A DNA stretch of 44,896 nt from Burkholderiales bacterium (GTDB taxonomy: Bacteria > Pseudomonadota > Gammaproteobacteria > Burkholderiales > Burkholderiaceae_C). The translations under genes and the position numbers were made by a program. The stretch lies in assembly GCA_018969975.1 (NCBI GenBank), contig JAGWXI010000012.1:1-44896 (forward strand), given 5' to 3'. Below, in pieces: positions 1 through 33,746 of this stretch; the first letter of the stretch is position 1, and every line of letters begins with the position of its first letter. Under the pieces are notes generated by a model. The model was not told the origin of the DNA and did no database searches. It worked only from the letters and a program-made list of their open reading frames with translations.

Positions 1-109
1 CCACCACGTCATGCAAGACCCAACGCCAAGTCTGCCAACGACCCATAGCCCCCGGAACACGCTCGCGGCGCATGATGACGGCTACTTGCAAACTGGGGCG
101 TGAAGTCAT
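1..109 (-). CDS. DUF3305 family protein, N-terminal fragment (cut by window edge)
   Basis: Only the first 36 codons are in the window; the gene continues past base 1. The start codon is the ATG at 109-107. The visible peptide begins MTSRPSLQVAVIMRRE and goes on with a Trp-rich stretch (RWQTWRWVLHDVV). As I recall it, this is the opening of the DUF3305 family of Burkholderiales, small proteins usually found beside a DUF3306 protein and formate dehydrogenase genes. The role in formate dehydrogenase metabolism is known only by association. No clear Shine-Dalgarno sequence is visible in front of the ATG. The gene diverges from the repeat-protein gene at 381. Confidence 0.75.
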   Translation of the reverse strand, partial: MTSRPSLQVAVIMRRERVPGAMGRWQTWRWVLHDVV

Positions 110-380: not shown

Positions 381-3300
381 ATGCAAAATTCTTCAGTAAC
401 TTCGGTTAGCAGTTCTAGCGCTTCTGTTGCGTACAGCACAACCTTGCCTGATGTTTCCACCGACATTGCGACCCTCAACTCGGATGGCATTAAAGCACTC
501 AGTACGGCCACGATTGCGTCTCTGACAACTGCGCAGCTAGCACTCATTCAACCGGAGTCCATTCCTGGGTTGACCACTGTTCAACTCGGGGCGCTTCCGA
601 CAGGCTCTATCGGCGCCCTCAGTACAGACCAATTACCTTTTTTAGGAACCGCCCAATTAGCCGCCCTTACTACTTTGGCACTACAAGAATTTAAAACCAG
701 CCAAATTCCGACACTGTCAACTCTGCAAATTAGTAGCTTGTCGCAAACACAAGTTGGGGCATTAAAAACAGACCAATTAACCAGTTTGACGTCAACACAA
801 ATTGCCGCCCTCACTAGCCAGCAAGTTATAAGTTTGACGCCGTTGCAGATCGCCGCCCTCACAACTTCTCAATTCCAAGCCATGACCACAGCGCAGTTAT
901 CGGCGCTCACAACAACGCAAATAGCCAATATTGAGGTGGCAGATTTACAAACTTTAGCCGCCAGCAATACACAAATTCAGTCACTGAGTTCGAGCCAACT
1001 TGCTGCACTCAGCACACAACAGGTCTCCACCTTATTTGCCCTGAGCTCGCTTGGATTGACCAATAAACAAGTTGCCGTTATCTCCACTACTGCCCTGTCG
1101 GCGCTGACAACGGATGAAATTAACCACCTCTCTTCCGCACAAATACAAGGATTGACCACCGGCCAAGTTGCAGCGCTCTCATCGACGCAAATCAACAACC
1201 TCAGCACCGACCTGCTCCAAGCGCTGACAAGCACCAGTATTGCCGCCATTCCAACAGCGACGCTGGTGGCCATCAGCACTGCACAGATCAGTAATTTCAA
1301 TTCCTCACAAATTGACGCCTTGACCAGTTCGCAGATAACTGCTTTGACATCAGACCAGTTAGCCAATTTAACTTCCACACAAATCGCGGGTCTAGGTGGT
1401 CCGGGTGTGGCACTTCTGAGTTCAAGCCAAATTGCGGGACTGGGTTCTAGCCAGATTGCAGGCCTAGGTACAGAACTCGTCAAGTCTTTGACAACAACAG
1501 CGATCAAGAATTTGTCGTTGGATCAGGTGGGCTACCTTAGTTCGGGACAAATTGCCGCACTAACAACTGCCCAAGTCAAATCTCTCACATCTGAACAATT
1601 AAATAGCCTGTCTGCTGAAAACCTCGGGGCAATTGAAACTGCGGATATTGCATCCATCACAACGCCTATATTGAGTAGTTTCACGCAGATTTCCAATCTG
1701 AGTTCACAGCAAATACAAGCGTTTACCAATGCGCAAATTCGCTCGCTCACTACGTCGCAATTGCAAAGCCTCTCTGCTGATCAATATGCCAGTTTGACCG
1801 CTGCAGAAATTAGTAACTTGAGCGCCTCACAAGTTGCCAGTTTCACCACTGCAGGGATTTTTACGCTGAGTTCATCGCAAATTCAGGCAATTTCCTCAGC
1901 AGCAGTTACCTCTTTAGACTTGAGCGCACTGAGCACCGATCAATTGAGTGCACTCACTACCAAACAAGTCAGCGCACTGAGTGCAACCAAAATCAATAGC
2001 CTGACAGCTACATCCTTGAGTGCGCTCAGCGGTACCGCCATCACCGCTATTGCAACTGCTGTAATAGCTGCGCTCAATACAGACCAAATCAGTAGCCTCT
2101 CCAATACACAAGTTTCAGCCTTAACCAGCGCGCAAATACAGGCCCTAAGTACTACACAGCTGAATGCTATGAATGCGGATCAAATTGCCAGCATTTCTGT
2201 AGCAGGTGTCTCCGCATTAACCACCGCGCAAATCACCGGGCTTACTGCTGCAATAGATTTGTTAGCAGGATTGAGCACAACGCAAATACCAGCGCTGAGC
2301 GCAGCTAACGTAGCCATACTGACAACGGCACAACTCAATGCTCTGAGTACCGCGCAAATCAACAGCCTCAATGCAACGCAGGCTAAAGCTTTAACTGGCG
2401 TTCAAATAACTGCGCTGACTACAGAAAACATAGCGGCGCTTAGCTCCACTGCAGTTGCCAACCTCAGCACCGCAGCTATCAGCACTATTAGCACCTCGCA
2501 GTTGCAAAACATCACTTCTTCACAATTTCAGGGTTTAACCTCGACTGCCTTGCGTGCCTTGACAACTGACCAGATCGCTGCGCTCACGACCGTACAAACA
2601 TCTTCTTTAAGTACGGCACAGATTTCTGCATTGACAGCGCTGCAAATCAACAAGTTACCCACCGCCAATACGGCTGCTTTGTCTACGGGTCAAATCAAAG
2701 CGCTAGGCTCTGCACAAATTGCAGCGATGACTAGTGCACAAATAAACAACTTAACGTCTGCGCAATTGCAATCTTTAAGTACCGCTGGGGTGGCATCCAT
2801 TTCAACCACCAATATTGCTCTTCTAAGTACCGCTGTCATTTCGAATCTGTCAACTTCACAAATTCAAGCGCTTACTTCCTCGCAATTTGCCAATCTAACT
2901 ACCGATGAAATAACTGCGCTCACAAGTACGCAGTACGCCGCCCTTACGACCAAACAAATTATGGGCTTGGACGTTACACGCGTTTTATCCTTATTTGGCG
3001 GGGCATCCGTCTCAACCAAGATCAGTTCAATTCCAGCCAATGCGCTGACTAAATTAACCACCACGAATACAGCCACGCTCACCAGCGCTCAGTTAGGTGC
3101 CCTAACGACTGCGCAGATTCCTGGCCTCAGTGCCAATGTCATTGGTAGCTTTACAACAACTTCTACAGGGCAAATAAAAGGGCTTACGAACGCTCAAATA
3201 TCCGTTCTGACGCAAGCGCAGGCTAAGGCTTTGAGTGCAGCTCAGCTTGGAGCGCTGACAACGAACCAAACAGCATCTTTATCTACCTACGCAATAGCTG

Positions 3301-3773
3301 CATTAAATTCTGCCGCCGTACCTAGTTTGCAAGTTGCTTCGTTGACTTCAACACAGGTGAAGTCTCTCAAAGCGGTTCAAATTAAATCGTTTACCGCTAG
3401 CAGTCAAATTCCAGCTCTTACTACCGCCCAAGTTTCTTACTTGTCGGCAGACGCCATAAAAGCACTTACGAACACACAAGTTGCAGCGCTGACGGTAAAT
3501 CAAGTGACAAACTTAACAGCTACCCAATCTGCAGCACTCTCTGCCACCCAGCTCAATGCCATGTCAACAGACAGGCTGGTAAAAATAACTCCGTCTAACT
3601 TGCGTTCTGTAGCACTCGCTGGAATGACGGAAAGTAAACTAAGAGCATTGTTTGACTCAACCAGAGCGACTATCAACAACACAGTGACCTTAGATCAGTG
3701 GAACATGCTTGGAAGCACTAAGCGAGCATTGCTCAGGGGGTTGGGAAGCAGCTTATTCGCGGTTCCTACTTAA
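381..3773 (+). CDS. Giant octapeptide-repeat protein (about 128 units of L-[ST]-[ST]-x-Q-[ILV]-x-x)
   Basis: I do not recognise a named family. The 1130-residue protein is almost entirely an eight-residue repeat from about residue 40 to 1065, with units such as LTTAQLSA, LSSSQIAG and LTSTQIAA. Position 1 is Leu/Ile/Phe/Met, 2-3 are Ser/Thr, 5 is mostly Gln, 6 is Ile/Val/Leu and 8 is small. I count about 128 units by eye, with a few of 5, 6, 9 or 10 residues. There is no Cys and charge is very low, as in secreted or surface repeat proteins. The first 40 residues are Ser-rich with no signal peptide, and the last 60 or so are non-repetitive and basic (RALLRGLGSSLFAVPT at the end). The [ST]-x-x-Q pattern resembles a helix N-cap box; a beta-solenoid is the other obvious fold. 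A surface, adhesin or matrix role is only a guess. AAGGG at 367-371 supports the ATG. Confidence 0.9.
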   Translation: MQNSSVTSVSSSSASVAYSTTLPDVSTDIATLNSDGIKALSTATIASLTTAQLALIQPESIPGLTTVQLGALPTGSIGALSTDQLPFLGTAQLAALTTLALQEFKTSQIPTLSTLQISSLSQTQVGALKTDQLTSLTSTQIAALTSQQVISLTPLQIAALTTSQFQAMTTAQLSALTTTQIANIEVADLQTLAASNTQIQSLSSSQLAALSTQQVSTLFALSSLGLTNKQVAVISTTALSALTTDEINHLSSAQIQGLTTGQVAALSSTQINNLSTDLLQALTSTSIAAIPTATLVAISTAQISNFNSSQIDALTSSQITALTSDQLANLTSTQIAGLGGPGVALLSSSQIAGLGSSQIAGLGTELVKSLTTTAIKNLSLDQVGYLSSGQIAALTTAQVKSLTSEQLNSLSAENLGAIETADIASITTPILSSFTQISNLSSQQIQAFTNAQIRSLTTSQLQSLSADQYASLTAAEISNLSASQVASFTTAGIFTLSSSQIQAISSAAVTSLDLSALSTDQLSALTTKQVSALSATKINSLTATSLSALSGTAITAIATAVIAALNTDQISSLSNTQVSALTSAQIQALSTTQLNAMNADQIASISVAGVSALTTAQITGLTAAIDLLAGLSTTQIPALSAANVAILTTAQLNALSTAQINSLNATQAKALTGVQITALTTENIAALSSTAVANLSTAAISTISTSQLQNITSSQFQGLTSTALRALTTDQIAALTTVQTSSLSTAQISALTALQINKLPTANTAALSTGQIKALGSAQIAAMTSAQINNLTSAQLQSLSTAGVASISTTNIALLSTAVISNLSTSQIQALTSSQFANLTTDEITALTSTQYAALTTKQIMGLDVTRVLSLFGGASVSTKISSIPANALTKLTTTNTATLTSAQLGALTTAQIPGLSANVIGSFTTTSTGQIKGLTNAQISVLTQAQAKALSAAQLGALTTNQTASLSTYAIAALNSAAVPSLQVASLTSTQVKSLKAVQIKSFTASSQIPALTTAQVSYLSADAIKALTNTQVAALTVNQVTNLTATQSAALSATQLNAMSTDRLVKITPSNLRSVALAGMTESKLRALFDSTRATINNTVTLDQWNMLGSTKRALLRGLGSSLFAVPT
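498..3575 (+). repeat. 24-bp coding repeat array (octapeptide solenoid)
   Basis: The DNA has a 24-bp coding period through almost the whole gene at 381-3773. Units are conserved as protein but diverge strongly as DNA: synonymous codons such as CTC/TTG/TTA/CTG alternate at the same position. The array is therefore old and held by selection on the protein, not freshly expanded. Units that break the Gln-5 rule cluster in groups roughly every 13-18 units, suggesting a larger period near 130 residues. Confidence 0.8.
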
Positions 3774-3794: not shown

Positions 3795-4886
3795 TTAAGT
3801 ATCCTTGCTGACTTTGATAGAAGGAAACTTAGAAGAAAAGTCTTTCGCCTTGGCGGCAATCTTGACCGCCACTTGCCTGGCCATTGCTTTGTAAATAAGC
3901 GCCACATCCCCCTCAGGGTCTGCCACCACGGTGGGCTTGCCGCTGTCGGCTTGCAAACGAATTTGCATGTTCAATGGCAAAGCACCTAAGTAATCCATGC
4001 CGTAGGTTGCGGCCATCTTCTTGCCGCCATCTACACCAAAAATATGTTCCGTGTGGCCGCACTGGGTACAGATGTGCACCGCCATGTTTTCCACCAATCC
4101 CAAAATTGGTACGCCCACTTTCTCGAACATCTTGATGCCTTTTTTGGCGTCGAGTAATGCAATGTCTTGCGGGGTCGTCACAATCACAGCGCCAGTCATG
4201 GGCACGCGTTGGCTCAATGTGAGTTGTATATCACCTGTGCCAGGCGGCATATCGACAATCAAATAATCCAAGTCACGCCAATTGGTTTGGCGCAACAACT
4301 GCTCAAGCGCTTGGGTAGCCATGGGCCCCCGCCAAATCATGGCTTCATCTTGGTCCACCAAAAAACCAATCGACATCACTTGCACGCCGTAGTTTTCTAA
4401 GGGGTCCATGGTCTTGCCGTCTTCACTTTCGGGTCGACCTTCGATGCCCATCATCATGGGCTGGCTAGGACCGTAGATATCGGCATCCAACAGACCAACA
4501 CTGGCACCTTCTGCGGCTAAGGCCAAGGCTAAATTAACAGCGGTGGTGCTCTTACCTACGCCGCCTTTTCCTGAAGCCACAGCGATGATGTTCTTGACTT
4601 GCGGCAAGAGTTGAACGCCGCGCTGCGCTGCATGCGCCACGATCTCTGAGCTGATATTGACCGACACATTAGCAACTCCAGCAATAGTTTTGGCAGCAGC
4701 GATCAATTCTTTTCGCAAAGCTGGCAATTGACTTTTAGCGGGATAACCCAGCACTACATCGAAAGAGACATCGTTGTCTTGGATGTGCAAATTTTTAAGA
4801 GATTTGGAACTAACAAAATCTTTGCCCGTATTCGGGTCGACAACGGTTTGTAAGGCGGCTTGTAGCGCCTGCTCGGTCAGTGCCAT
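3795..4886 (-). CDS. apbC: Iron-sulfur cluster carrier protein ApbC/Mrp (NBP35-like P-loop ATPase)
   Basis: The 363-residue product binds and transfers Fe-S clusters to target apoproteins in the cytoplasm. An N-terminal DUF59/MIP18-like domain (about residues 1-95) precedes the P-loop domain, which has the deviant Walker A motif GKGGVGKST, the DADIYGPSQ switch region and a CTQCGH pair that is the expected bridging-cluster CxxC. I chose the ATG at 4886 (MALTEQALQ) because homologues start there; the open frame runs 39 codons further upstream into the metG promoter region. No good Shine-Dalgarno site is visible. The gene diverges from metG across 115 bp and converges on the repeat-protein gene with 21 bp between stops. 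Confidence 0.95.
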   Translation of the reverse strand: MALTEQALQAALQTVVDPNTGKDFVSSKSLKNLHIQDNDVSFDVVLGYPAKSQLPALRKELIAAAKTIAGVANVSVNISSEIVAHAAQRGVQLLPQVKNIIAVASGKGGVGKSTTAVNLALALAAEGASVGLLDADIYGPSQPMMMGIEGRPESEDGKTMDPLENYGVQVMSIGFLVDQDEAMIWRGPMATQALEQLLRQTNWRDLDYLIVDMPPGTGDIQLTLSQRVPMTGAVIVTTPQDIALLDAKKGIKMFEKVGVPILGLVENMAVHICTQCGHTEHIFGVDGGKKMAATYGMDYLGALPLNMQIRLQADSGKPTVVADPEGDVALIYKAMARQVAVKIAAKAKDFSSKFPSIKVSKDT

Positions 4887-21345: not shown

Positions 21346-21366
21346 AGTACTAATTTGGAGATTAAA

Positions 21367-22662
21367 ATGAATCCTTTCTCAAAACTGTACCTATCCCCTT
21401 TCACCCGAGGTCTGCAAACAATAGCGGTGTCAAGTGTAATACTTTTTAATACTTCTTTTGCCCAAAACTTACCGCAGCTAATGAATCTTGCCCTCCTTAG
21501 TCATCCAAGTATTGCATCACAAAGGGCGCAAGCCCAGGCAGCAGAATTGGGGATTGAGACCGCGAAATGGCAATATTTCCCGACCCCCTCTATCAGCGCT
21601 GAACGAGTAGGTGCAGGCACGCGTGACCCTTTCTACGGCGGCGATAAAAACGTCACGACCGTTCGGCTACAGCAACCCTTGTGGACCAACGGGCGATTAA
21701 CAGCAGGCAAAGAAAAGGCCCAAGCCACGCTGGCCTATGAAATCGCTGACCTCAATGAAACCAGCTTGCAACTCAGCCTCAAGGTCGCACAAGCCTACGC
21801 CGACGTACTTGCTTCGCATTGGCGCATGAAGTCAACCGAACAAAGCCTCGCTACCCACCAAAAATTACTTGAACAAGTGCAACGCCGAGTCGAGCTTGGT
21901 GCGCAATCTGATGCCGATCTGCAACTAGCCCAAACCCGATTGGATTCAGTGAAATCTGAGCTCAGCGCAAGCCGCTCCCGCGTTGAGAGCCACGCCGTTC
22001 GTCTGAAGCAACTCATCGGTCAACCGGTCAATTTAAATGAATTACTCAAGAATGTATCGACTCCACTTTTCTTGGCCACTGCGCAAGAGCTCGCTCTAGA
22101 AAATGCGTTAGCTATCCACCCCACTATCCAAAAAGCGCGGGCGCAATTACAAATCCAAGAGTCCGCGGTAGAAGAAAGCCGCTCTGCCCTCTACCCAGAC
22201 GTCTATGCAAGGGCAGAGCGGCAATACGGTGCTTTCTCCATGCTGACCAGCAAACCGTTTCAAGACCGCATCTTTGTGGGTTTAAGCACCCAACTTGGCG
22301 CAGGACTCTCCGTCTTAACCAATATCAAAGCAGCGCAAGCAAGAAGTCTCGCTGCACACGAAGAGGTGCAATCACAAACCTTGTCTGTCAGCGAACAAGT
22401 TCTCACCGACTACGCCCAAGTAACAAGACTTGCAGAGCAAACCCAGGCGCTTGAATCGGCCCTCCAATCGCAAGAGCGCGTGATGCTCTCACATGACCGC
22501 CAGTTTTTAGCGGGTCGCAAAAGCTGGACTGAAGTCTTGAACGCGGCCCGCGAACTCGCCCAAGCACAAGTTCAGTTGACGGATGTGAAAGCCAATCACA
22601 TAGCAACGTCATGGCGATTAGGCCTCTTCATCAAGGGCCTAGAAATCGTCAACAACCCTTAA
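21367..22662 (+). CDS. TolC family outer-membrane efflux/secretion channel
   Basis: The outer-membrane component of a type I secretion system. The product (431 residues) has a Sec signal peptide (hydrophobic core about residues 18-30, likely cleavage after SFA) and the TolC pattern of two related halves rich in long coiled-coil helices: NLPQLMNLALLSHPS near the start, QARLD-type heptads (LQLAQTRLDSVKSEL), then ALENALAIHP in the second half. Type I outer-membrane proteins of the LapE/AggA sort look like this. The ATG at 21367 is supported by GGAG six bases upstream; the TTG four codons earlier overlaps that site. The stop is directly followed by the ATG of the exporter gene, so translation is coupled. 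Confidence 0.93.
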   Translation: MNPFSKLYLSPFTRGLQTIAVSSVILFNTSFAQNLPQLMNLALLSHPSIASQRAQAQAAELGIETAKWQYFPTPSISAERVGAGTRDPFYGGDKNVTTVRLQQPLWTNGRLTAGKEKAQATLAYEIADLNETSLQLSLKVAQAYADVLASHWRMKSTEQSLATHQKLLEQVQRRVELGAQSDADLQLAQTRLDSVKSELSASRSRVESHAVRLKQLIGQPVNLNELLKNVSTPLFLATAQELALENALAIHPTIQKARAQLQIQESAVEESRSALYPDVYARAERQYGAFSMLTSKPFQDRIFVGLSTQLGAGLSVLTNIKAAQARSLAAHEEVQSQTLSVSEQVLTDYAQVTRLAEQTQALESALQSQERVMLSHDRQFLAGRKSWTEVLNAARELAQAQVQLTDVKANHIATSWRLGLFIKGLEIVNNP

Positions 22663-24822
22663 ATGAAAACGGGAAAAATCATGGAAGACCTCAAGAACAT
22701 ACAACTCTTAGCTTGCTTGGTTCGCCTAGCGCAATTGCAATCGGACAACCTCGACCGCCTCGCACTTCGCGAAGCAGTGGTGAACGCTCAAGAAAAAAAT
22801 CCCGACGATGCCAAAGCGCAAATTCGCCACATCACCAAACAACTTCGCTTGCCGCAGGCACGCTGGAAACCAGAGCCCCAACAAGACAGCGCTCCAGCAC
22901 TTCTTTGTCGCATAGAGCCGTTTTTTGGAATTGAATGGGGTTTATTACGCGGCAAAAATCCCCAAAACCAATGGGTCAGTGAATGGTGGGATAGCACCTC
23001 GAATCGCTGGGTCGAACGCGCCGACGAAGCACTGCCAGATCACCATGCCATTTCACTCAAACTCAGCCAACCGTACGTAGCGAGTAAGAGCCCCGTCTTT
23101 CGCCTTATCTTGGACGAACTGCTATCGCATCGCCGCATCCTGCGAGAGACAGTCTTAGCAAGTCTTATTGCCACTTTATTGGCCCTCGCAATTTCATTTT
23201 TTAGCATGCAAGTCTATGACCGGGTCATTCCATCGGCGGCCATGCAAACACTGCTGGTGCTGACTTTAGGCGTCCTCTTAGCACTCTTTTTTGAATGGCT
23301 CATCAAACATGTACGCAGTAATTTATACGAGGAGTTGATTGACCAAGTCGACCAACGCCTTGCGCGCATGGTGTATTTGAGGTTTCTATCTGTCCGTCTC
23401 GACCAAATGCCACACAGCGTCGGGGCCTTGGCTTCACAAATGCGCGGCTATGAAACCATTCGCGGATTCATGACATCGATGACCACCAACCTCATGGTCG
23501 ATGCACCATTTGCGTTATTTTTTGCTGTTGTCATTGCGTTCATCGCGGGGCCTCTTGCGCTGATACCGACTTTTTTCTTCCTTCTATCCGTGTCTATTGG
23601 TTTGCTTTATCGCAAGCGCTTGGAAAATATTGCAAAGCAAGCCTTGGCTGCTGGCAATCTAAAAACGGGTTTGTTAGTCGAAACCATCGAAGGAGCCGAA
23701 ACTATCAAATCAGGACAAGGCGGCTGGCGCATGCTTAACCGCTGGATGCGCACCACCAACGAAGCGCGCGAAAGCGAATTGGAAATGCGCAACATCAGCG
23801 AACATGCCCAACACCTCGCTGCGTCCTTTCAACAAGTCTCTTACGTATTGATGGTGGCATTCGGTGCCTACCTTGTCACTCGCAGCGAAGTCAGTCAAGG
23901 AGGCTTGATTGCTTGCACCATTCTTGCAGGCAGGGTTTTGTCTGCAGTTGCCATCATTCCAGGACAAATCGTTCAATGGTCCCATGCAAAGGCTTCACTA
24001 CAAAGCCTCGACAAGCTTTGGTCATTAGAAGACGACCACCATGGGCAAGCGCAACCGATTGCGCTTGAAAACATCCGTGGTGAATACAAATTAGAAACAG
24101 TGACCTCGCACTACCACGGTAGCCGCGCCCTCACTGTGCCGCAACTCATTATTCGTCCTGGTGAAAAAATTGGCGTCTTAGGGCCCGTAGGCTCAGGCAA
24201 AACCACCTTGCTTCGTATTTTGTCTGGCATGTACAAGCCACAAGAAGGTCGTGTATTACTTGATGGCATTGACATTGCACACATCGATAAACACCTACTG
24301 GCAGGACACATTGGCTATGTGCAACAAGACGGTCGGCTTTTCTCGGGCACTTTAAGAGACAACCTCATCTTGGGCCAAATCGATCCTGGCGACGAAGTCA
24401 TTTTGGAAGCAGCCCGTCAAACCGGCCTCATGCAAGCCGTCATCACGCCACATCCACATGGCTTACAACGTTTGATCTATGAAGGCGGCACTGGTCTATC
24501 AGGTGGTCAACGCCAATTGGTCAATCTGACACGAACCGTTCTGCGCAAGCCCAGCATCTGGTTGCTAGACGAACCTACCGCATCGATGGACAGAAACACC
24601 GAATTGCACATGACGCATACCCTACAAAAAGCCATAAAGCCCACTGACACCTTGGTCTTGGTCACCCATAAACAAGAAATGCTCAGCCTGGTAGACAGAT
24701 TGATCGTTGTCTTAAACCACCAAATTGCGTTAGATGGGCCCAAAAAAGAGGTGCTCGACCAACTCAGCGGCACAACCAGGTCCGCGCCCAACAGCAATTC
24801 CATGCATTTACGACAAGCCTAA
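22663..24822 (+). CDS. Type I secretion ABC transporter (LapB/HlyB type)
   Basis: The inner-membrane ATPase of the exporter. In 719 residues it has an N-terminal cytoplasmic domain (about 1-150) where a C39 peptidase-like domain would sit but with no obvious catalytic Cys-His pair, as in RTX-type exporters; a six-span membrane domain (about 160-440); and an ATPase domain with Walker A GPVGSGKTT near 507, signature LSGGQRQ near 612 and Walker B IWLLDEPTA near 632. The ATG at 22663 abuts the TolC stop; an ATG six codons further in (MEDLKN) is possible. The HlyD gene follows after 15 bp. A degenerate C39 domain implies that substrates are not cleaved at a double-Gly leader. Confidence 0.95.
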   Translation: MKTGKIMEDLKNIQLLACLVRLAQLQSDNLDRLALREAVVNAQEKNPDDAKAQIRHITKQLRLPQARWKPEPQQDSAPALLCRIEPFFGIEWGLLRGKNPQNQWVSEWWDSTSNRWVERADEALPDHHAISLKLSQPYVASKSPVFRLILDELLSHRRILRETVLASLIATLLALAISFFSMQVYDRVIPSAAMQTLLVLTLGVLLALFFEWLIKHVRSNLYEELIDQVDQRLARMVYLRFLSVRLDQMPHSVGALASQMRGYETIRGFMTSMTTNLMVDAPFALFFAVVIAFIAGPLALIPTFFFLLSVSIGLLYRKRLENIAKQALAAGNLKTGLLVETIEGAETIKSGQGGWRMLNRWMRTTNEARESELEMRNISEHAQHLAASFQQVSYVLMVAFGAYLVTRSEVSQGGLIACTILAGRVLSAVAIIPGQIVQWSHAKASLQSLDKLWSLEDDHHGQAQPIALENIRGEYKLETVTSHYHGSRALTVPQLIIRPGEKIGVLGPVGSGKTTLLRILSGMYKPQEGRVLLDGIDIAHIDKHLLAGHIGYVQQDGRLFSGTLRDNLILGQIDPGDEVILEAARQTGLMQAVITPHPHGLQRLIYEGGTGLSGGQRQLVNLTRTVLRKPSIWLLDEPTASMDRNTELHMTHTLQKAIKPTDTLVLVTHKQEMLSLVDRLIVVLNHQIALDGPKKEVLDQLSGTTRSAPNSNSMHLRQA

Positions 24823-24837
24823 ACCAGGAACACCATC

Positions 24838-26007
24838 ATGAAAGTATTGAACTTCAGAAAATTTTCTACCCTACTCACTTCAACCAACATCATTTTTCTG
24901 CTCTTGATGGTGTTCATCATTTGGGCTGCTGTCTTTGAAATTGATCAAACCGTTCGCGGACAAGGCAAATTAATTCCTGCAGATCGCACCCAAATCATCC
25001 AAGTCGCCGATGGCGGAGTACTCTCACGGATCTTTGTACAAGAAGGCGATATCGTTGAAAGTGGTCAACCCTTAGCCGAACTAGAAAAAGACCGCGCCAG
25101 CGCATCCTTCACGGAGAGTCGCGCCAAACTGGCCTCCCTTGAGATCGCGCTTATTCGAGCCCAAGCCGAAGCCAATCAAACCGCTCCCGTCTATGGAAAA
25201 GACTATGCAGATTTTTCGCAATTCCAAGCACTGCAAATGGCTTTTTATAACCAACGCAAACGCAGTCTTGCGCAAGACATAGAAAACCTCAGCGAAAGCC
25301 TTCAGTCAGCGCAACAAGAGCTCGAGCTCAACAAAAAATTATTCCTAACAGGAGACACTAGCCAACTAGAAGTCATGCGTGCACAACGCCAAGTAACAGA
25401 TATGCAAGGGCGCATCAACAGTACGCGTAACAAATATTTGCAAGATGCGCGCGCAGAGGCGGCAAAAATAGCAGAAGAACTCTCGACCAACTTCTATAGG
25501 CTAGAAGAGAGACAAAGCGTCCTAGACCACACCACCATCACCGCACCCGTGTCTGGCATTGTGAAATACCAGCGCATCACCACTATCGGTGGTGTTTTGC
25601 GGCAAGGCGACGAGCTGATGCAAATATCACCCACCGACGCCGAACCGGTATTTGAAATCAACATCAATCCAACCGACATCGGACAGCTGAAAAAAGGCTT
25701 GCCAGTCACCATCCGGCTTGATGCCTTTGATTACTCCATCTATGGCGTATTGCACGGAACGCTCAGCTACATCAGCTCGGACACGCTCACCGAGCAAGGT
25801 CCCAATGGTCAAGCCAGCACCTTCTATCGCGCCCACGTGCGCTTGCATGCAGATGCACCCAAGGCCGCCCATTCCAAACTTAACTCCACCATGCTCAAAC
25901 CCGGCATGACAGCCACGATAGACGTCAAAGCGGGAACCCGCTCGGTACTCAAATACCTCATCAAACCTATCTACAAAGCATTTGGTGGCGCGCTCACCGA
26001 ACGGTAA
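24838..26007 (+). CDS. HlyD family type I secretion periplasmic adaptor
   Basis: The membrane-fusion subunit linking the ABC exporter to the TolC channel. The 389-residue product has a short cytoplasmic N-terminus, one membrane span (about residues 18-37), a split lipoyl/barrel-sandwich domain (VRGQGKLIPADRT on one side, ITAPVSGIVKYQ on the other) around a long coiled-coil hairpin (about 85-225), and a C-terminal beta-barrel region with LKPGMTATIDVK near 355. It is typical of HlyD/AprE/LapC adaptors. AGGAA at 24826-24830 lies seven bases before the ATG. The first giant substrate gene starts 37 bp downstream with a perfect ribosome binding site. Confidence 0.95.
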   Translation: MKVLNFRKFSTLLTSTNIIFLLLMVFIIWAAVFEIDQTVRGQGKLIPADRTQIIQVADGGVLSRIFVQEGDIVESGQPLAELEKDRASASFTESRAKLASLEIALIRAQAEANQTAPVYGKDYADFSQFQALQMAFYNQRKRSLAQDIENLSESLQSAQQELELNKKLFLTGDTSQLEVMRAQRQVTDMQGRINSTRNKYLQDARAEAAKIAEELSTNFYRLEERQSVLDHTTITAPVSGIVKYQRITTIGGVLRQGDELMQISPTDAEPVFEININPTDIGQLKKGLPVTIRLDAFDYSIYGVLHGTLSYISSDTLTEQGPNGQASTFYRAHVRLHADAPKAAHSKLNSTMLKPGMTATIDVKAGTRSVLKYLIKPIYKAFGGALTER

Positions 26008-26044: not shown

Positions 26045-29000
26045 ATGAACAACAACTCTGTAAACAACGGCACAAATAGTGTCTCTACTGAATCGTTTAA
26101 AAGTCAACTCAAAAGACTGTCTACAAAAAAAATGGCGAAACAAACGCCTAAGAACTCTTTAGAGCTCGGTAAAGAATTGGTCTCGTCTAACAAAGACGCA
26201 TCAACTACTGTTCAAAAAATAAAAGGCAAATTTCGCCCTGATGAAGATGGGCAAGAGATAACGACTGACGCTGCAACCACTTCCACTCCCGCACCACAAG
26301 ACGTACAAATTGCAAGCCTGTCTAGCGAAATTACCCAAGTAGCCGAAATAACCCAGACAGTCGCTATGGCGCCTTCTGTGGCTGCAGTCGACATAGTCAC
26401 AGCTTCGGCCACCGCCTCTGCACCTTCATTTAGCCTAGTAGGCTTAGGAGCCGGGGCTGGTGCAGCAGTTGCTTTGGGGTCGAGTCAAAGCGGAGGTCAA
26501 TCAACAAGCCCCAGCCAAGCTTCTTCATCCTCAGTTCAAGGATCTTCCGCAGGCAATAAGCCAGCGGGTGCCGCAAAAATCAAATTAGATGGGTTGATCG
26601 CATTAGGTCCGATCGTCGATGCAAGGGGTTTACAAATTGAGGCCCAGGATAAACAAGGAAGAAGCTTAGCGAAAACGACAAACATTAAAAATGATGGAAC
26701 TTTCTCTATCGATGTACCAGGCGATTACACGGGCACCATTATTTTAAAAGTCAGCAATACTCTTGAGGGTGCCACACACTATATTGATGAAGCCACATTA
26801 ACTCCTACAAGCCTTGGCAACAAAGAGTTGTATGCCGTTTTCAATGTCGCACCAGGTCAACCTAGCCTAAAAATAAATGTCAACCCACTCACCTCCCAAG
26901 TGGCGGTCCATTTATTCGGTTCAGCCACCTATAAAGCTTTAACTGACGCTGAAATTAGCGACGCCAATATTCTTATTGCAAGAAAATATGGCATCTCTAC
27001 GGACGATGCCAGCGCCATCGCCACTAAGGTGCCTCAGCTGTTAATTAACGCAGATGGAACCGTAAACCCCAACGCCAATATTGTGGGCCTTGTACTTGCA
27101 ATGCACTCGGTTTTAGAAGCCAATCCAGAAATGAGAGCTGCCGATGCACTAGCAAGGCTTAAAGAAATACCAGCTTACAAAGCTTCACCAAAGTTAATTG
27201 AATTGATTGACAACAGTGCTGGCAGTTTTCATGACAATGCGCCCACCGGCTCTGTCACCATCACCGACAGCGCTGGTAGTGCACTCGCAGCCAACGCCGC
27301 TGTAGCAGAGGGCGCTGTGCTCACAGCCTCCTCCTCCATCGCAGACGCTGATGGCATTCCTGCTTCTGGTGCTGGTGCACTCTCTTACAAGTGGCAAGCC
27401 TCTGCTGATGGCGGCCTCACTTGGGCGGATATTGCAGGCGCTACTTCCGACACTTTCACCACCACACAAGCGCAGGTCGGTCAACGTGTGCGCGCTGTTG
27501 CTTCTTACACCGATAACTTCGGCACTGCTGAGACAGTCAATAGTGTTGCCACAGTTATAAATAGCGCGGGTGTCATCACTAATCCTGCAGACATGCCCTC
27601 TTTAAGCCCCACAGCTATAGGCGATGCAGAAGCGGGAACTGCGCGGGCCGGCATGAAAGGGTTCGCCTATGCAGCAGGCGACGTCAATGGCGACGGACTC
27701 GATGATTGGATGACTGCAACAGAAAAAACCGATTTATCAGATAACCAAGTCAATATTTATTACGGAAATACTGCAGGCAGTTTTGATACCACTGCTGATC
27801 ACAAGCTTCCGGGGGTGCTACCCCCTCCCGATATAGAGTGGCCATATACAGTACCGTTTAACCAAGGAAGGCTAAGAAATACAGATTTAATAAATCCCCA
27901 TAAGGTAGGTGATTTCAATGGCGATGGTGTTGAAGAAATCGCTTTCACATCCTGGCAAAGGCCACTGCAAGCTGATGCTGACCACTTAGGGTTTGGGATA
28001 AAGATTTACTCTCCTACAACTTCAATCTCATCTCCTATCTTTACTTTATACAGCGTAGATTACAGTGATCTGTTTATTGACAGTCATCTCAATATTGAAG
28101 GGGGAGACATCAATGGAGATGGGCTATCTGACATACTCGCTCTTGCGCGTTATGAAGCAAGCGTTTATATAAAGCTTGGTGAAAAAAATATAGCGGGCAC
28201 AGAGGATGTCATCAGGCAACCAAACACAAGAACTATCAAAATATTCGATAGCGATATTGCAGAAAAGAGCTTGATAGCATTTACTGGAGCTGCCGTCATA
28301 GGCGATGTAAATGGTGATGGCTATGGAGATTTTGCAGTTGCGGTAGGGCCAAGTACTGGTATCGCCCCGAATCTCGATAGAACTCCAAGTAAAACATACA
28401 TCGTTTATGGCAGTTCTGGTCTTGCCAATTTAGATCTTAAGAGCTTAAGAACAGCGACTCCTGCGGGAGAAACCGCTAAAGGATTTGTAATCAATGCAGA
28501 TTCAAACTTACCGCGAGTTGGGCAAAACCTTGCCTTTGATGGAAACAAGCTAATAGATTTCAACGGTGATGGTTTAAACGATGTAGTTTTAACGGGTGAA
28601 GCCTATGTGCAAGATGCTGGTAAACCGAATACGCATGTTGTTGACGTCGTTTTTGGCAAAACCAGTTCTGCCCCAGTAAACATCAATGCAGTTAGTGCTT
28701 CGTTGCGAATTATCTTGCCAGAATTGATAGGCCTAACAAGGAGTTCCAATAATCGAATAACAACTTCCAATGCTGGTGATGTCAATGGCGATGGATTGGA
28801 AGATTTATTGATTACTGCATCCTGGCGAACGAGTGATGTTTATGCGGCAGGAACGGTGTATCGAAAATCTTATGTTGTCTACGGTAAAACCGACTCTGCG
28901 TCTATTGATTTAACAACTAGTGGTGATTGGGGTTTCAACGTTGTCGACGACAGCAAGTTAGTTTCCGCGCTACCAGCGAATTATTTCTGGGTCCCTATTG

Positions 29001-29818
29001 TTGAAGGTAATCTTGCTTTAGGTGGCAGTGTCATTGCTGCAGGCGATCTCAATGGCGATGGACTATCCGATTTAATCATCGAAGATATTGAGGCAGGTGG
29101 AGGCACTGAACCAGGAAGTAGTAGCGCCACAGACCCCCAAATAGTTTTTGGTGGCTCTGCTATGCAAGGTTCATCGAGCGCTCAACCGAGCTCGCAATGG
29201 AAGCTTAATTATTTGGGTACCTCTGGTAATGACACGATAACAGGCACAGCCACTTCCGAGACCTTTGCAGGGGGCGTGGGCGACGATGTAATGGTTGGAA
29301 ATGGTGGTGCCGATGTCATGTTTGGCGGTGCGGGCAAAGACGCCTTCGTGCTCAATGCAAACAACGTAGCGCAACTAGCAGCAGGCGTTGATTCCAGCGG
29401 ACGCTTAGCTTCTATTCGTGGAGGTGCTGGCATAGACACCTTGAGCTTGCAAGGCTCAACAGGCATCACACTGGACTTTACTTTGATAGACGACACGCGC
29501 GTGCAATCGGTTGAAGTGCTCAATTTAGCCAGCAACAACCATCTCAAAATTTCATGGAAAGACATCCAACACATGGCCAGCATGAACCTCTTTAATGCCA
29601 ATTCAGGTTGGTCTGGCTTTAACAGCGACGGTTCTGAATCAAAGTTTCACCAAGTTGTGGTGGAAGGCACTTCATCTAGCAGTTTAAATTTTTTAACGGA
29701 AGGAGGATGGGTAAAGAAAACGGAAAGCGTGACTCACTCAGGTGCAAATTACGCGGTCTATAGCAATGATGCACATGCAACGCAATTGTTAGTCAATACG
29801 GCTATCACCATTATTTAA
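26045..29818 (+). CDS. Giant FG-GAP/RTX protein, putative type I secretion substrate
   Basis: A 1257-residue protein with no Sec signal, next to a type I exporter. Parts seen in order: a polar basic N-terminus (1-110); a Gly/Ala-rich hydrophobic stretch (about 128-150) and Ser-rich linker; a domain of unknown type (about 178-395); an Ig-like or cadherin-like repeat (about 398-505) with SYKWQASADGG; and seven DxNGDGxxD motifs near residues 545, 623, 687, 753, 837, 912 and 1000, most followed by a Y-G or F-G strand as in FG-GAP repeats, enough for a seven-bladed integrin-type propeller. An RTX-like tract with GNDTITG, GDDVMVG and GGAGKDAF lies near 1058-1098, and a tail of about 150 residues probably holds the secretion signal. 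Calcium binding is expected. A perfect AGGAGG (26032-26037) precedes the ATG, implying strong translation. An adhesion or matrix role is inferred. Confidence 0.88.
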   Translation: MNNNSVNNGTNSVSTESFKSQLKRLSTKKMAKQTPKNSLELGKELVSSNKDASTTVQKIKGKFRPDEDGQEITTDAATTSTPAPQDVQIASLSSEITQVAEITQTVAMAPSVAAVDIVTASATASAPSFSLVGLGAGAGAAVALGSSQSGGQSTSPSQASSSSVQGSSAGNKPAGAAKIKLDGLIALGPIVDARGLQIEAQDKQGRSLAKTTNIKNDGTFSIDVPGDYTGTIILKVSNTLEGATHYIDEATLTPTSLGNKELYAVFNVAPGQPSLKINVNPLTSQVAVHLFGSATYKALTDAEISDANILIARKYGISTDDASAIATKVPQLLINADGTVNPNANIVGLVLAMHSVLEANPEMRAADALARLKEIPAYKASPKLIELIDNSAGSFHDNAPTGSVTITDSAGSALAANAAVAEGAVLTASSSIADADGIPASGAGALSYKWQASADGGLTWADIAGATSDTFTTTQAQVGQRVRAVASYTDNFGTAETVNSVATVINSAGVITNPADMPSLSPTAIGDAEAGTARAGMKGFAYAAGDVNGDGLDDWMTATEKTDLSDNQVNIYYGNTAGSFDTTADHKLPGVLPPPDIEWPYTVPFNQGRLRNTDLINPHKVGDFNGDGVEEIAFTSWQRPLQADADHLGFGIKIYSPTTSISSPIFTLYSVDYSDLFIDSHLNIEGGDINGDGLSDILALARYEASVYIKLGEKNIAGTEDVIRQPNTRTIKIFDSDIAEKSLIAFTGAAVIGDVNGDGYGDFAVAVGPSTGIAPNLDRTPSKTYIVYGSSGLANLDLKSLRTATPAGETAKGFVINADSNLPRVGQNLAFDGNKLIDFNGDGLNDVVLTGEAYVQDAGKPNTHVVDVVFGKTSSAPVNINAVSASLRIILPELIGLTRSSNNRITTSNAGDVNGDGLEDLLITASWRTSDVYAAGTVYRKSYVVYGKTDSASIDLTTSGDWGFNVVDDSKLVSALPANYFWVPIVEGNLALGGSVIAAGDLNGDGLSDLIIEDIEAGGGTEPGSSSATDPQIVFGGSAMQGSSSAQPSSQWKLNYLGTSGNDTITGTATSETFAGGVGDDVMVGNGGADVMFGGAGKDAFVLNANNVAQLAAGVDSSGRLASIRGGAGIDTLSLQGSTGITLDFTLIDDTRVQSVEVLNLASNNHLKISWKDIQHMASMNLFNANSGWSGFNSDGSESKFHQVVVEGTSSSSLNFLTEGGWVKKTESVTHSGANYAVYSNDAHATQLLVNTAITII

Positions 29819-29846
29819 TATTTTTAATTGAAAGGATTTTTCAAAA

Positions 29847-32800
29847 ATGTCTACTACTGAATTTTTATCTGGGGGTGTTGTCGCGCCCGCACCTGGTCGG
29901 GAGTTGCAAGCTCATATAAAAACAACATCGACAAGAACCACACTACCAAAGACAACACTTCAAGGCAGTACGTCAGCCGCGTTCACAAATGAAACTAAAG
30001 AGACTACAGGGATTACGAGTTTTCCGCTTACCACCACAACGAATACAACCACCGCCCTGGTAAATACATCCACGGCAACGGTTCATGTCCTAACAGAACG
30101 GTTAAGCATGACAACAACTACAACCACGCCGACTAAGACTCATAGCAATGCCACCGCCACAGTCACAAGTTCAGGCATGACAGTGATGGAAACTCTAACT
30201 ACTGAGACAACCACTAAAACATGGACTACACCAACTACAACAGTCACAGCAGGCGGAACAATTACCTCTTCCAATACCACTGTGACTAAAACCACTTCTA
30301 CAACAACTAGCTCGCTAACATCGGCCACATCCACTACAACACTCACTACAACGAATACCACGTCAACGGATGGACGAATTGGAATTACTACCTCTACCAC
30401 CTCCACGCAATCGACATCCGCAACTGGTACGCAACATTCTGAGAAACACACCACCACTACCACCACTTTTAACAGTGATCCCGCTTCGACCACAACGTCA
30501 TCGACCACGCCCACTTCAACTACGCCTACTACCACGGGCAATATCACTATAACTGTGGAGGAAGTGCGCAATAGAACTAATGGCACCACAACACAAACCG
30601 TTACTACGCAAACAACGACGAGTAGCGGCAGCACAACTACAACGACTTACACCAAAGACTTTCCATCATCGCTAACTACTACCACAACTACGTCAACCTT
30701 TAAAAATTTGACAGATGCAACTACAAGCAATTTGTTGCTGTCAGACACCACGACCACTACAACCCTTGCCAACGATACGACAATTTCGGGGGTTATCCAA
30801 ACCAATACAACTTCGACCCACACAGCATCATCTACAACTTTTGATGCTATTAGACATGCCACTAACACCACACAAAATGGCGACACAACAACACTAACCA
30901 CAACTTTTAAAGGTAATTTCTTAACAACAACAACAACGACTGGTGCTATTACGACAAGTGTTGAGTCGCAAACAAGTTCATCCAGTGCTCCAAATAATTT
31001 TTTTCTAGCTCCTGCAACTACACTAGTTGTAAATGCATCAAGTTCATCTAGCAATGCGCCACCACTAAGTCCGATGTGTACTGATGAAAAAACAATTATT
31101 CCTGGACTTTCTGATGCTTCATTTTTTGGTATTGGCGGAGGATTACTTTCTGTCGCTGGTTTAGCGATTGCTGTTTACTATGCCAGGAGATCCATACGTC
31201 ACGGGGATGAAGCAGCTGGTTTAAATGTGTACAACCAACAAAATATAGCCATAAGAAATATTATGGAAGGAAAAGTATCTGTAGAGACCTTAATGACTGA
31301 TATAGAAGGGGCTAGAGAGAGACAGAAAATAGTAAAGCGATCTAATTCAAATACTGAGCTAAACTTTGTTCAAGCAGTAATTAACGCATTTAACACTGCT
31401 TATAAGGACCGTTATTTAGTTAAACTTGTAGGCAAGACATATGAAGTTATTGATTGCTTGACTGATAGCGCTGTAGAAAATAAAGCTACGTGCTTAGTTA
31501 AGCCAGTAGCAATGCTTGCAGTGGAAGCTGGTGCAGAAACTTTAATGAGCGCATTGCGAGGTGCTGCTTACGAAGTTGCTGATGAAGGGGGTACACCACC
31601 AACTGAAGTTAATCCACCACCTTGGAGTGTTGTTCCAGTTCCTGGTGGACGCCGCCAAAAAGATTCCCAAGACGGAACATACTCAGTCATAGATTCACTG
31701 TGTGAAAAGCTCTACGAATCGCATGAGATGTTGTTTGTCAATCCTGACAAGTTAGACCTACTCAACTATGTAAGCCAAAATCTGTCTGTGCTGCTCAACT
31801 CTCCTAATCTGTCTGCTGCTGACAGGCGGATGATTGATGAAGAGATTTTGCCGCAACTGCGATCGGGATACCTCTCTATATTCGCTTACGAAGTCACCAC
31901 TAAGGGAATAAGCAACGTCATGGCGAGCAGTACTCTTGCCGTTGATGTCTCCAATATCAATACTTGGATCAACAGAGACCATTGGACAAAAACCTCCTAC
32001 TACACCAACAGTAATTTTTTTGATACAACTGTTGATGCAAATGGAAAAATGAATATCCTCATTGCACAAAACTCTGGCGGCCAAACGCGCTTTGTTACTT
32101 TAGTGGGTACGGACACCCAATACAGTGAGGGGCTTGCAGACGCTGCTATTGATATCGTTGCGTTAGCAGCTGAAGCAGGCCGCAAATACAACATCAGCAC
32201 AGGCGCGTCTGACGATGTGCTGATTGTTGACTTCTCATCTAATAGCGATGCCAACACTGCCGTTAACTTGTTAGGGGGAGATGGGCGCGACACCTACATC
32301 ATCAAGGTTCGCGACGGGCATGGCCGAGTACCAGGCAAAGTCACCATCCTTGATTTCAATCCCAATGAGGACAAAATCATTTTCGATACGGGCATAGACA
32401 ATTATCTGAAACCCAATATCAAACAAACTTGGAGTGGTTACATCTTTGCCGCGCCCCGCATAGATTCGACCAAAGGTGATGGAACGGTTCAGCTTTATGC
32501 CCAAACACCATATAGTCGTTGGCATGATTGGTGGATTCCCAACCGGGGCCGTATAGACACGCTCGAAGGCACGGGCATTCCCATGGTCGAAATTTGGTCG
32601 GCGAGGTCAGGGCTAGGGGGCAATATGCTCGCGCAAAACAATAATGCCATTCAAACGACCTATAAGGGTGACCTCTCCCCTGACGCTACAACCACCGCCG
32701 TGTTGATTCCCACAAGCACATACCAAAGCACTTACAGCCAATTTGAAAACGCCAACGATAGGGACTGCTTCAAGGTGGGGTTACTGGCAGGTAACTTCTA

Positions 32801-33746
32801 TCGATTCCGCATCATTGCAGATCCTTCTGCTACTCACATCATCAGTGATACGGGTCCGATTACCAAGGTGCAACTCACTGTGAAAAGGCAATTGGAAAAC
32901 GGCCAAGAAGTTACGGTTGTTACTTCCGCTACACCAACAGCTTACAACCATGACTATGAAATAAGCTTTTTTGCGCAGTCGGACGGCTTGCACTATTTGT
33001 ACGCTGGCAGTGATCTTCAAACACCAATTGGGAGTTACGATATCAAATACAGGGAAGCCAAGCCGCAAGATGTATTCTCACAGGCAAAACCTATAGTAGA
33101 AGGTCAGTTTAAAGGGGGCGACGACTTCCAAGTGTTCACCGCCGATTTAACTGCTGGGCAGTCCGTTCGCCTGACTGATTACGCAGACAGAGCAAGCCTC
33201 AGTATCTTTGATCCCAGTGGCATAAAAATCAACCCTCGGTTTAGTCACGCTAGGGACGACACCTACACATTCATGGCCAATGAAACAGGTAAGTACCGCT
33301 TTGTTGCCGAAGATAAGGTGAAACAATGGCCTGTACAAGACTTCAAAATTGGGTTTGCCCACATACTTGAGGTAGATGAGAACGTCAAAACCCACGCTGA
33401 TTTAAAAGTAAATACACGCATCAACAATGATCTTTGGACCAACCGTGACCACGACTGGTTTAAAGTGGAGTTAAGCGGTGGCAAGACTTACCAATTTGAC
33501 TTGAACAAAGCCGCTGGCACCAGTCTTGACACCTACATCTGGTTGCGTGACGCAAGTGGCAATGTACTTGGAAAAGATAGATTGAACCGATTTGCGTATG
33601 ACGACGATAATGGCGGGAGTGCTTCTGCCCCCTACGACTCCCGCCTCATCTACGAAGTAGCCAGCAGCGGAACCTACTTCATCGATGTGGGCTCATGGCA
33701 AGGCCGATCAAACGGCAATTACGCACTGGGCTACACAGTCATCTAA
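29847..33746 (+). CDS. Giant Thr-rich (mucin-like) protein with RTX-like and PPC-type domains, putative second secretion substrate
   Basis: A 1299-residue protein I cannot place in one family. Residues about 25-400 are extremely Thr-rich (runs such as TTTTTTPTKT), resembling an O-glycosylated stalk. A membrane-type hydrophobic segment follows (about 424-446, GGGLLSVAGLAIAVYYARR) with an Arg-rich flank. Residues about 450-780 are an unrecognised, partly helical domain containing a few Cys. RTX-like sequence (GASDDVLIV, LLGGDGRDTYII, then ILDFNPNEDKIIF) spans about 784-852, and the C-terminus has two or three pre-peptidase C-terminal (PPC) domains at about 970-1070, 1092-1170 and 1200-1299, the last ending NYALGYTVI. 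There is no signal peptide. AAAGGA at 29831-29836 lies ten bases before the ATG, and only 28 bp separate it from the FG-GAP gene, so both share the exporter transcript. Its stop lies 20 bp from the convergent aspS stop. Confidence 0.85.
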   Translation: MSTTEFLSGGVVAPAPGRELQAHIKTTSTRTTLPKTTLQGSTSAAFTNETKETTGITSFPLTTTTNTTTALVNTSTATVHVLTERLSMTTTTTTPTKTHSNATATVTSSGMTVMETLTTETTTKTWTTPTTTVTAGGTITSSNTTVTKTTSTTTSSLTSATSTTTLTTTNTTSTDGRIGITTSTTSTQSTSATGTQHSEKHTTTTTTFNSDPASTTTSSTTPTSTTPTTTGNITITVEEVRNRTNGTTTQTVTTQTTTSSGSTTTTTYTKDFPSSLTTTTTTSTFKNLTDATTSNLLLSDTTTTTTLANDTTISGVIQTNTTSTHTASSTTFDAIRHATNTTQNGDTTTLTTTFKGNFLTTTTTTGAITTSVESQTSSSSAPNNFFLAPATTLVVNASSSSSNAPPLSPMCTDEKTIIPGLSDASFFGIGGGLLSVAGLAIAVYYARRSIRHGDEAAGLNVYNQQNIAIRNIMEGKVSVETLMTDIEGARERQKIVKRSNSNTELNFVQAVINAFNTAYKDRYLVKLVGKTYEVIDCLTDSAVENKATCLVKPVAMLAVEAGAETLMSALRGAAYEVADEGGTPPTEVNPPPWSVVPVPGGRRQKDSQDGTYSVIDSLCEKLYESHEMLFVNPDKLDLLNYVSQNLSVLLNSPNLSAADRRMIDEEILPQLRSGYLSIFAYEVTTKGISNVMASSTLAVDVSNINTWINRDHWTKTSYYTNSNFFDTTVDANGKMNILIAQNSGGQTRFVTLVGTDTQYSEGLADAAIDIVALAAEAGRKYNISTGASDDVLIVDFSSNSDANTAVNLLGGDGRDTYIIKVRDGHGRVPGKVTILDFNPNEDKIIFDTGIDNYLKPNIKQTWSGYIFAAPRIDSTKGDGTVQLYAQTPYSRWHDWWIPNRGRIDTLEGTGIPMVEIWSARSGLGGNMLAQNNNAIQTTYKGDLSPDATTTAVLIPTSTYQSTYSQFENANDRDCFKVGLLAGNFYRFRIIADPSATHIISDTGPITKVQLTVKRQLENGQEVTVVTSATPTAYNHDYEISFFAQSDGLHYLYAGSDLQTPIGSYDIKYREAKPQDVFSQAKPIVEGQFKGGDDFQVFTADLTAGQSVRLTDYADRASLSIFDPSGIKINPRFSHARDDTYTFMANETGKYRFVAEDKVKQWPVQDFKIGFAHILEVDENVKTHADLKVNTRINNDLWTNRDHDWFKVELSGGKTYQFDLNKAAGTSLDTYIWLRDASGNVLGKDRLNRFAYDDDNGGSASAPYDSRLIYEVASSGTYFIDVGSWQGRSNGNYALGYTVI
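29919..31050 (+). repeat. Low-complexity ACN-rich tract encoding the Thr-rich stalk
   Basis: About 1.1 kb made largely of ACN threonine codons mixed with serine codons. All four ACN codons are used, so the tract is not a simple microsatellite, but short perfect runs such as repeated ACA occur (near 30925). The reverse strand reads as spurious Val-rich frames. Such DNA may vary in length between strains. Confidence 0.75.

Follow-up and report, generated by a model that had tools for sequence, protein, structure and literature searches.

The window analysed here, a 44,896-nucleotide stretch of a Burkholderiales genome (contig JAGWXI010000012.1), encodes at positions 381..3773 a 1130-residue protein of 8-residue tandem units, L-[ST]-[ST]-x-Q-[ILV]-x-x, which its profile match places in the ALTTAQ repeat family of Pfam (PF20080). 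We propose, with a probability of about 0.42, that ALTTAQ proteins are exported repeat rods whose exposed Ser/Thr at position 3 of the unit are O-glycosylated in the cytosol, a proposal in which glycosylation, export and adhesion are read from genome context. The family assignment itself is clear (473.2 bits against a gathering cut-off of 26.4, E 1.3e-145, 39 stretches), so that the family is not new. An initial annotation, made from the sequence alone, had recognized no named domain in the unit; that statement fails on the PF20080 match, and the novelty claimed with it falls because the repeat is already in Pfam. As to a characterized family of known structure, half was found: a named family and a solved chain (PDB 9zem) that shares the repeat by sequence, and no functional paper. 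In the literature searched, with papers judged mostly by title, no function was found for PF20080, and NCBIfam gave no match to the window protein. The parts of the gene are as follows, with confidence given as the predicted local distance difference test (pLDDT).

381..3773, + strand: ALTTAQ-repeat (PF20080) protein, 1130 residues; open reading frame with an ATG start and no internal stops, and the Pfam match given above.
381..452, + strand: Ser-rich N-terminus, residues 1-24, predicted to be disordered (pLDDT below 50).
453..3650, + strand: repeat region of about 116 8-residue units, one short predicted helix each, from profile, motif counts and models; residues 196-233 of low confidence.
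2271..2966, + strand: 29 uninterrupted units, the input of structure prediction (pLDDT 96.3).
3651..3773, + strand: C-terminal end with two further predicted helices, partly of low confidence, from the full-chain model.

Compared with itself, the protein matches best at a shift of 8 residues (self-identity 0.291; 0.064-0.105 at lags 1-7 and 9). With a lenient profile, 116 units were placed that cover 82% of the protein, with 98 of the 115 successive spacings exactly 8; taken alone this count is lenient, because 50 shuffled proteins also give a mean of 53 units and a maximum of 63. The strict motif L[ST]xxQ[ILV]xx[LIMF] occurs 53 times (mean 0.3 and maximum 3 in 200 shuffles) and a loose motif 81 times (mean 1.7, maximum 7). 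The roughly 128 units over about 90% of the protein given in the initial annotation are slightly high but fair. No tandem repeat was found in the DNA of the gene at the tool threshold.

The repeat is maintained by strong purifying selection at the protein level, as had been proposed from the variation of codons between units. Where two aligned units carry the same amino acid, their synonymous codons are the same in 30.4% of cases, random choice giving an expected 30.7%, and this chance-level agreement implies that the units are old and have been kept as protein. The ratio of nonsynonymous to synonymous substitution rates (dN/dS) between the window gene and an 83% identical relative in a Burkholderiales metagenome-assembled genome (L045) is 0.063 over 1129 codons, and 0.041 for the neighbouring apbC; within the unit it is lowest at Gln5 (0.009), followed by position 8 (0.034) and position 1 (0.041), with the weakest constraint at positions 4 and 6 (0.13 and 0.12), all of these being rough ratios because synonymous sites are near saturation (proportion of synonymous differences, pS, 0.68).

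AlphaFold predicts the 29-unit segment as all alpha, each unit being one short helix of 4-6 residues. In this model the Ser/Thr at position 2 is the N-cap and the Gln at position 5 occupies N3, in agreement with the helix capping box of the initial annotation, whereas the other fold it had offered, a beta-solenoid with three sides and 24 residues per coil, finds no support in a model that is all helix. The predicted arrangement is a long alpha-solenoid of stacked units, one helix to every 8 residues and almost without charge, in which Leu1 and Ile6 likely form the core. A helix-turn pattern runs from about residue 25 to 1090 in the full-chain model, with low confidence at 196-233. Of 119 non-redundant repeat segments, 60 were used together with that of the window. 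A solenoid of this kind would have an unusually small repeat and could serve as a scaffold.

The best Foldseek matches were mesothelin and armadillo-type alpha-solenoids (E 2.7e-4), with which the ALTTAQ model would share a superhelix of helices. By sequence, the best match in the PDB was HeliScrew4 (9zem; E 3e-12 with a single sequence and 6e-26 with a profile), built of 8-residue units L-[ST]-P-x-[QK]-[IVF]-x-x; the likeness is one of sequence only, and 9zem was not among the best 50 matches of either PDB fold search. HeliScrew4 differs in being short (120 residues) and more charged, and in that most of its units (8 of the 9 phased ones in the HeliScrew4 piece) have Pro at position 3, where the natural protein has Ser/Thr. 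A Pro-rich position 3 and more charge were also seen in three proteins of about 3500-4150 residues with only 21-22 phased ALTTAQ-like units (L092, L097 and L098), near genes that resemble a type III secretion cluster.

Several other matches were set aside. CAAP1 and EndoS-LRR exceeded their Pfam cut-offs (43.6 and 30.2 bits, against 25 and 27.9), although no single stretch passes, and both were judged compositional. The same judgement probably applies to the leucine-rich repeat matches in Pfam and in the PDB sequence searches: leucine-rich repeats have a beta-strand in each repeat, and the 29-unit model has no strand. A phage collection gave no match at 1e-5; one PHROG without assigned function matched at 1e-15, and a viral structure library gave four matches at E ≤0.001 with a template modelling score of at most 0.33.

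The repeat was found in 37 of 61 sampled genomes of the genus, in 20 of 299 genomes of a phylum sample and on 62 of 72,556 plasmid records, most commonly in Rhizobium (17), Shinella (13) and Cereibacter (11). Of the 14 control genomes, only that of Caulobacter vibrioides carried PF20080, and it was one of two with a glycosyltransferase of family GT41. The longest ALTTAQ open frames reach 6361 residues in the genus (G022:C29) and 6436 in the phylum sample (G165:C1). In the genus, GT41 was detected in 32 of the 37 ALTTAQ-positive genomes against 7 of the 24 negative ones (Fisher p 8e-6), a comparison that, like all co-occurrence tests here, ignores the kinship of the genomes. The association was retained at completeness ≥90% (20/21 against 4/9, p 0.005), when contamination was also limited to ≤5% (17/18 against 4/8, p 0.02) and in genomes less than 80% complete (4/6 against 0/8, p 0.015). 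All 21 genus genomes with at least 20 repeat matches had GT41, as did 11 of the 16 with fewer. The flagellar export gene product FlhA, used as a control, showed no link (34/37 against 22/24).

We read 64 loci: 21 from the genus (L025-L044, with L030 continuing L029, plus L103 and the window), 21 from plasmids (L105-L113 and L122-L133) and 22 from the phylum sample (L076-L102, continuations counted with their own locus). The genus loci were chosen among the strongest matches, not at random, and several lie on short contigs; L031 and L032, each cut off by a contig edge within an ALTTAQ gene, could be opposite ends of a single locus. GT41 lies near the ALTTAQ gene in 9 of the 21 genus loci (L025, L026, L029, L031, L033, L034, L036, L037 and L038) and in at least 6 of the 22 phylum-sample loci (L077, L084, L086, L087, L090 and L101). 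It was present in 12 of the 21 plasmid loci, where about 1.3 of the 12 would be expected so near by chance, and in 10 of the 12 it was the next gene. One query found GT41 on 88 of the 72,556 plasmids, and among the matches listed 23 of 40 ALTTAQ plasmids were also among 60 GT41 plasmids, eleven of the 23 being Cereibacter. The clearest cassette, on plasmid pA of Cereibacter sphaeroides 2.4.1, comprises HlyD, a peptidase-domain ABC transporter, an O-linked GlcNAc transferase and the ALTTAQ protein.

Other genes recur at these loci. A metzincin-like protein of about 850-870 residues adjoins the ALTTAQ gene in L026, L031, L033 and L040, and in L031 and L040 it has an ALTTAQ frame on either side; it was checked with Pfam in L026 and L031 and assigned by similarity in the others. 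In L107 (Shinella zoogloeoides) the ALTTAQ gene follows immediately, on the downstream side, a pair of genes annotated as RNA polymerase sigma factor and anti-sigma factor, with no GT41 in the stretch read.

The composition of the unit offers a test of glycosylation. The helix cap depends on position 2 but not on position 3, so a glycosylated position 3 should gain Ser/Thr near GT41 and position 2 should not; position 3 could otherwise be any residue able to start a helix. Per locus, the Ser/Thr fraction at position 3 was 0.788 near GT41 (n=26) against 0.624 elsewhere (n=36; p 0.0008); position 2 gave 0.719 against 0.686 (p 0.37). Some of the 'no GT41' labels of phylum-sample loci may be wrong, GT41 having been read among the matches listed. 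Counted per protein with the first GT41 labels, position 3 gave 0.776 (n=24) against 0.612 (n=48; p 0.005). Both counts exclude proteins that have under 12 strict units, and duplicates recognized by one 60-residue stretch; the per-locus test also excludes those with under 30 phased units. Two groups show the effect: Rhizobiaceae (0.835, n=5, against 0.643, n=9; p 0.019) and the mixed remaining lineages (0.785, n=8, against 0.166, n=3). This rise is no more than suggestive of glycosylation at position 3.

For export, type I secretion genes lie near the ALTTAQ gene in 11 of the 64 loci: 1 of 21 in the genus (L103), 5 of 22 in the phylum sample (L084, L086, L087, L100 and L101) and 5 of 21 on plasmids (L105, L106, L109, L111 and L112); four phylum-sample loci have both type I genes and GT41. 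In two genus proteins (L039:3889-10011 and L103:4820-10753) the repeats follow a fused two-partner-secretion domain of the filamentous haemagglutinin type. The window protein has no Pfam match to that domain (PF05860) or to RTX nonapeptides (PF00353), and inspection of its N-terminus by eye revealed no evident signal peptide; residues 1-24 are a possible export signal. A C-terminal type I target domain, suspected by eye in Pseudomonas relatives, was not found with NCBIfam. The remaining features of the window that bear on export and on the site of the gene are the following.

2..109, - strand: 5' end of a DUF3305 gene, cut by the window edge, with its start at 109; assigned by likeness to the Pfam-checked copy in L027.
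3795..4886, - strand: apbC (Mrp-type P-loop NTPase), the other flank; assigned through Pfam on the L027 copy.
21355..22662, + strand: TolC-type outer membrane protein (PF02321) of a type I secretion operon, a candidate exporter.
22663..24822, + strand: LssB-like type I secretion ABC transporter (TIGR03375, 631.6 bits, below the cut-off of 693.1).
24838..26007, + strand: HlyD-type membrane fusion protein of the same operon (TIGR01843, 281 bits, over the cut-off).

The operon lies about 18 kb downstream of the ALTTAQ gene, and its ABC transporter shares 43% identity with that adjoining the ALTTAQ gene of L103. Between 19131 and 33746 the window encodes a subtilase-family protein, then the TolC, LssB-like and HlyD proteins, then two large proteins, one of 1257 residues with FG-GAP and RTX repeats (26045-29818, PF00353) and one of 1299 residues with no Pfam match at E 0.001. 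In the window's genome, 89% complete, no other ALTTAQ gene was found, and the single GT41 gene found lies on contig C46 next to flagellin. The partners of the window gene can thus be inferred but not linked to it, since GT41 is on another contig and the operon has its own likely substrates.

The ALTTAQ gene is an accessory gene at the apbC/DUF3305 site. Among 16 genus genomes, in which DUF3305 was judged by likeness to the L027 copy, the two genes overlap with nothing between them in three (G057, G047 and G040), an ALTTAQ gene occupies the site in two (G049 and G032), and other neighbours are present in 11; in L045 the ALTTAQ gene lies between apbC and a gene with shikimate-kinase and helix-turn-helix domains. 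The initial annotation had described the gene as inserted between DUF3305 and apbC under its own AT-rich promoter. Its position as an accessory gene stands, with gain and loss both compatible with these counts, and the upstream region is AT-rich (GC fraction 0.40 at 251-500), but a promoter of its own is not established, because a scan gave no sigma-70-like site upstream.

Put together, the proposed mechanism would run as follows. Ser/Thr2 would cap each helix with Gln5 at N3 of the capping box, and the units are predicted to stack as an alpha-solenoid. In many lineages a cytosolic GT41 enzyme would then O-glycosylate the exposed Ser/Thr at position 3 before export, and the rods would leave by whichever route is available: type I secretion, two-partner secretion or possibly the flagellar exporter. 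The result would be a surface or matrix rod coated periodically with sugar, serving adhesion or the coating of the surface. Neither partner of the window gene would be encoded beside it: the enzyme would come from the GT41 gene on C46, and the exporter possibly from the operon at 21355-26007. A bolder form of the proposal, which we hold to be doubtful, is that a large bacterial class of GT41 (OGT/SPINDLY-like) enzymes has its dedicated natural acceptors in the ALTTAQ proteins, which would carry one sugar per unit at the first helix position and thus be mucin-like, periodically glycosylated alpha-solenoids exported as surface or matrix rods by exchangeable secretion routes.

A number of observations weigh against glycosylated, exported rods. 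Five of the 37 ALTTAQ-positive genus genomes have no GT41 match, one of them (G047) being 100% complete; among genus genomes 80-90% complete the association is 8/10 against 3/7 (p 0.16), and at 9 of the 21 plasmid loci GT41 is missing from the stretch that was read. The phylum sample, with GT41 in 13 of 20 ALTTAQ-positive genomes against 84 of 279 negative ones (p 0.002), gives no independent support, because a single family (f44) contributes 11 of the 13; in the other families GT41 occurs in 2 of 9, no better than 84/279. Several of these nine show between one and five repeat matches. Position 3 shows no such effect within the window's genus (0.731 near GT41, n=11, against 0.724, n=14), and in f44 g96 the effect runs the other way (0.826, n=4, against 0.882, n=3); it may be phylogenetic, resting on Rhizobiaceae and the mixed lineages. 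Type I HlyD is not discriminating: it scores over the cut-off in 15 of 19 genomes with the repeat and in 5 of 9 without it. The full-chain model has a predicted template modelling score of 0.41. The window gene adjoins no GT41, flagellin or type I gene, and the large proteins at 26045-33746, one of them with RTX repeats, are the likelier cargo of the window operon. Finally, the GT41 enzymes near flagellin may act on flagellin.

This last point leads to the strongest competitor, an exported adhesin or matrix rod without glycosylation, whose association with GT41 would reflect shared residence in surface-structure islands with flagellin and polysaccharide genes; we regard it as possible, with the odds somewhat against it. 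Many loci do contain flagellin, methyltransferase and other glycosyltransferase genes, GT41 often adjoins flagellin in the genus, the window's genome included, and GT41 is reported in enterobacterial flagellin glycosylation islands (PMC4875605). The plasmids argue the other way: in the stretches where GT41 is so often the next gene, no flagellin was found by similarity. In the same surroundings we observed a small protein that bears MTLIQELMNQ, or a sequence like it, towards its N-terminus, close to flagellin and to GT41 or ALTTAQ genes (L026:2387-2893, L032, L033, L038 and L134); the L026 copy matches TPR_14, and L134 is a stretch of the window's own genome that has no ALTTAQ gene.

Flagellin was present within the stretch read in 9 of the 21 genus loci (L025, L026, L028, L029, L031, L032, L033, L034 and L038), which, with the disordered Ser-rich N-terminus and the lack of an evident signal peptide, is consistent with a protein that leaves through the flagellar type III system and belongs to the flagellum as sheath, cap or filament decoration. 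We think this unlikely: none of the 21 plasmid loci has flagellin by similarity, the window copy is away from flagellar genes, and FlhA does not track the repeat, a weak test of flagellar export because nearly every genome has FlhA (56 of 61 in the genus). An intracellular scaffold that is not exported would explain why neither a signal peptide nor an RTX match was seen in the window protein; the two-partner-secretion domains and adjoining type I secretion genes of relatives make it quite improbable. An ice-nucleation or ice-binding protein, suggested by the regular Thr arrays and by the label 'ICE nucleation protein' on some relatives' records (annotation only), can be dismissed almost entirely, since PF00818 scored 13.6 bits against a cut-off of 27 and ice-nucleation proteins fold as beta-solenoids, not as the all-alpha structure predicted here. 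Nor does that structure bear out the name given to other plasmid relatives, heme utilization protein.

With the repeat itself already in Pfam, it is the link to GT41 that would matter: an ALTTAQ-GT41 cassette such as that of C. sphaeroides 2.4.1 would supply a candidate substrate in which the site recurs at regular intervals.

Two known systems invite comparison. The HMW1 adhesin is beta-helical, and its HMW1C enzyme is of the GT41 class. In Haemophilus, HMW1C is reported as the glycosyltransferase partner of an adhesin that leaves the cell by two-partner secretion (PMC3012730). The likeness to ALTTAQ proteins would lie in the pairing of a GT41 enzyme with an exported adhesin; the difference lies in the linkage, which is to N in Haemophilus and presumed to be to O in ALTTAQ proteins, and in the alpha repeats of the latter. 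Closer in linkage is FlmG of Caulobacter, a protein with TPR and glycosyltransferase parts that is reported to O-glycosylate flagellins in the cytoplasm (PMC7591256). It differs in its flagellin substrate and its sugar, pseudaminic acid, and its domain is called GT-B there, not GT41 (PMC7591256).

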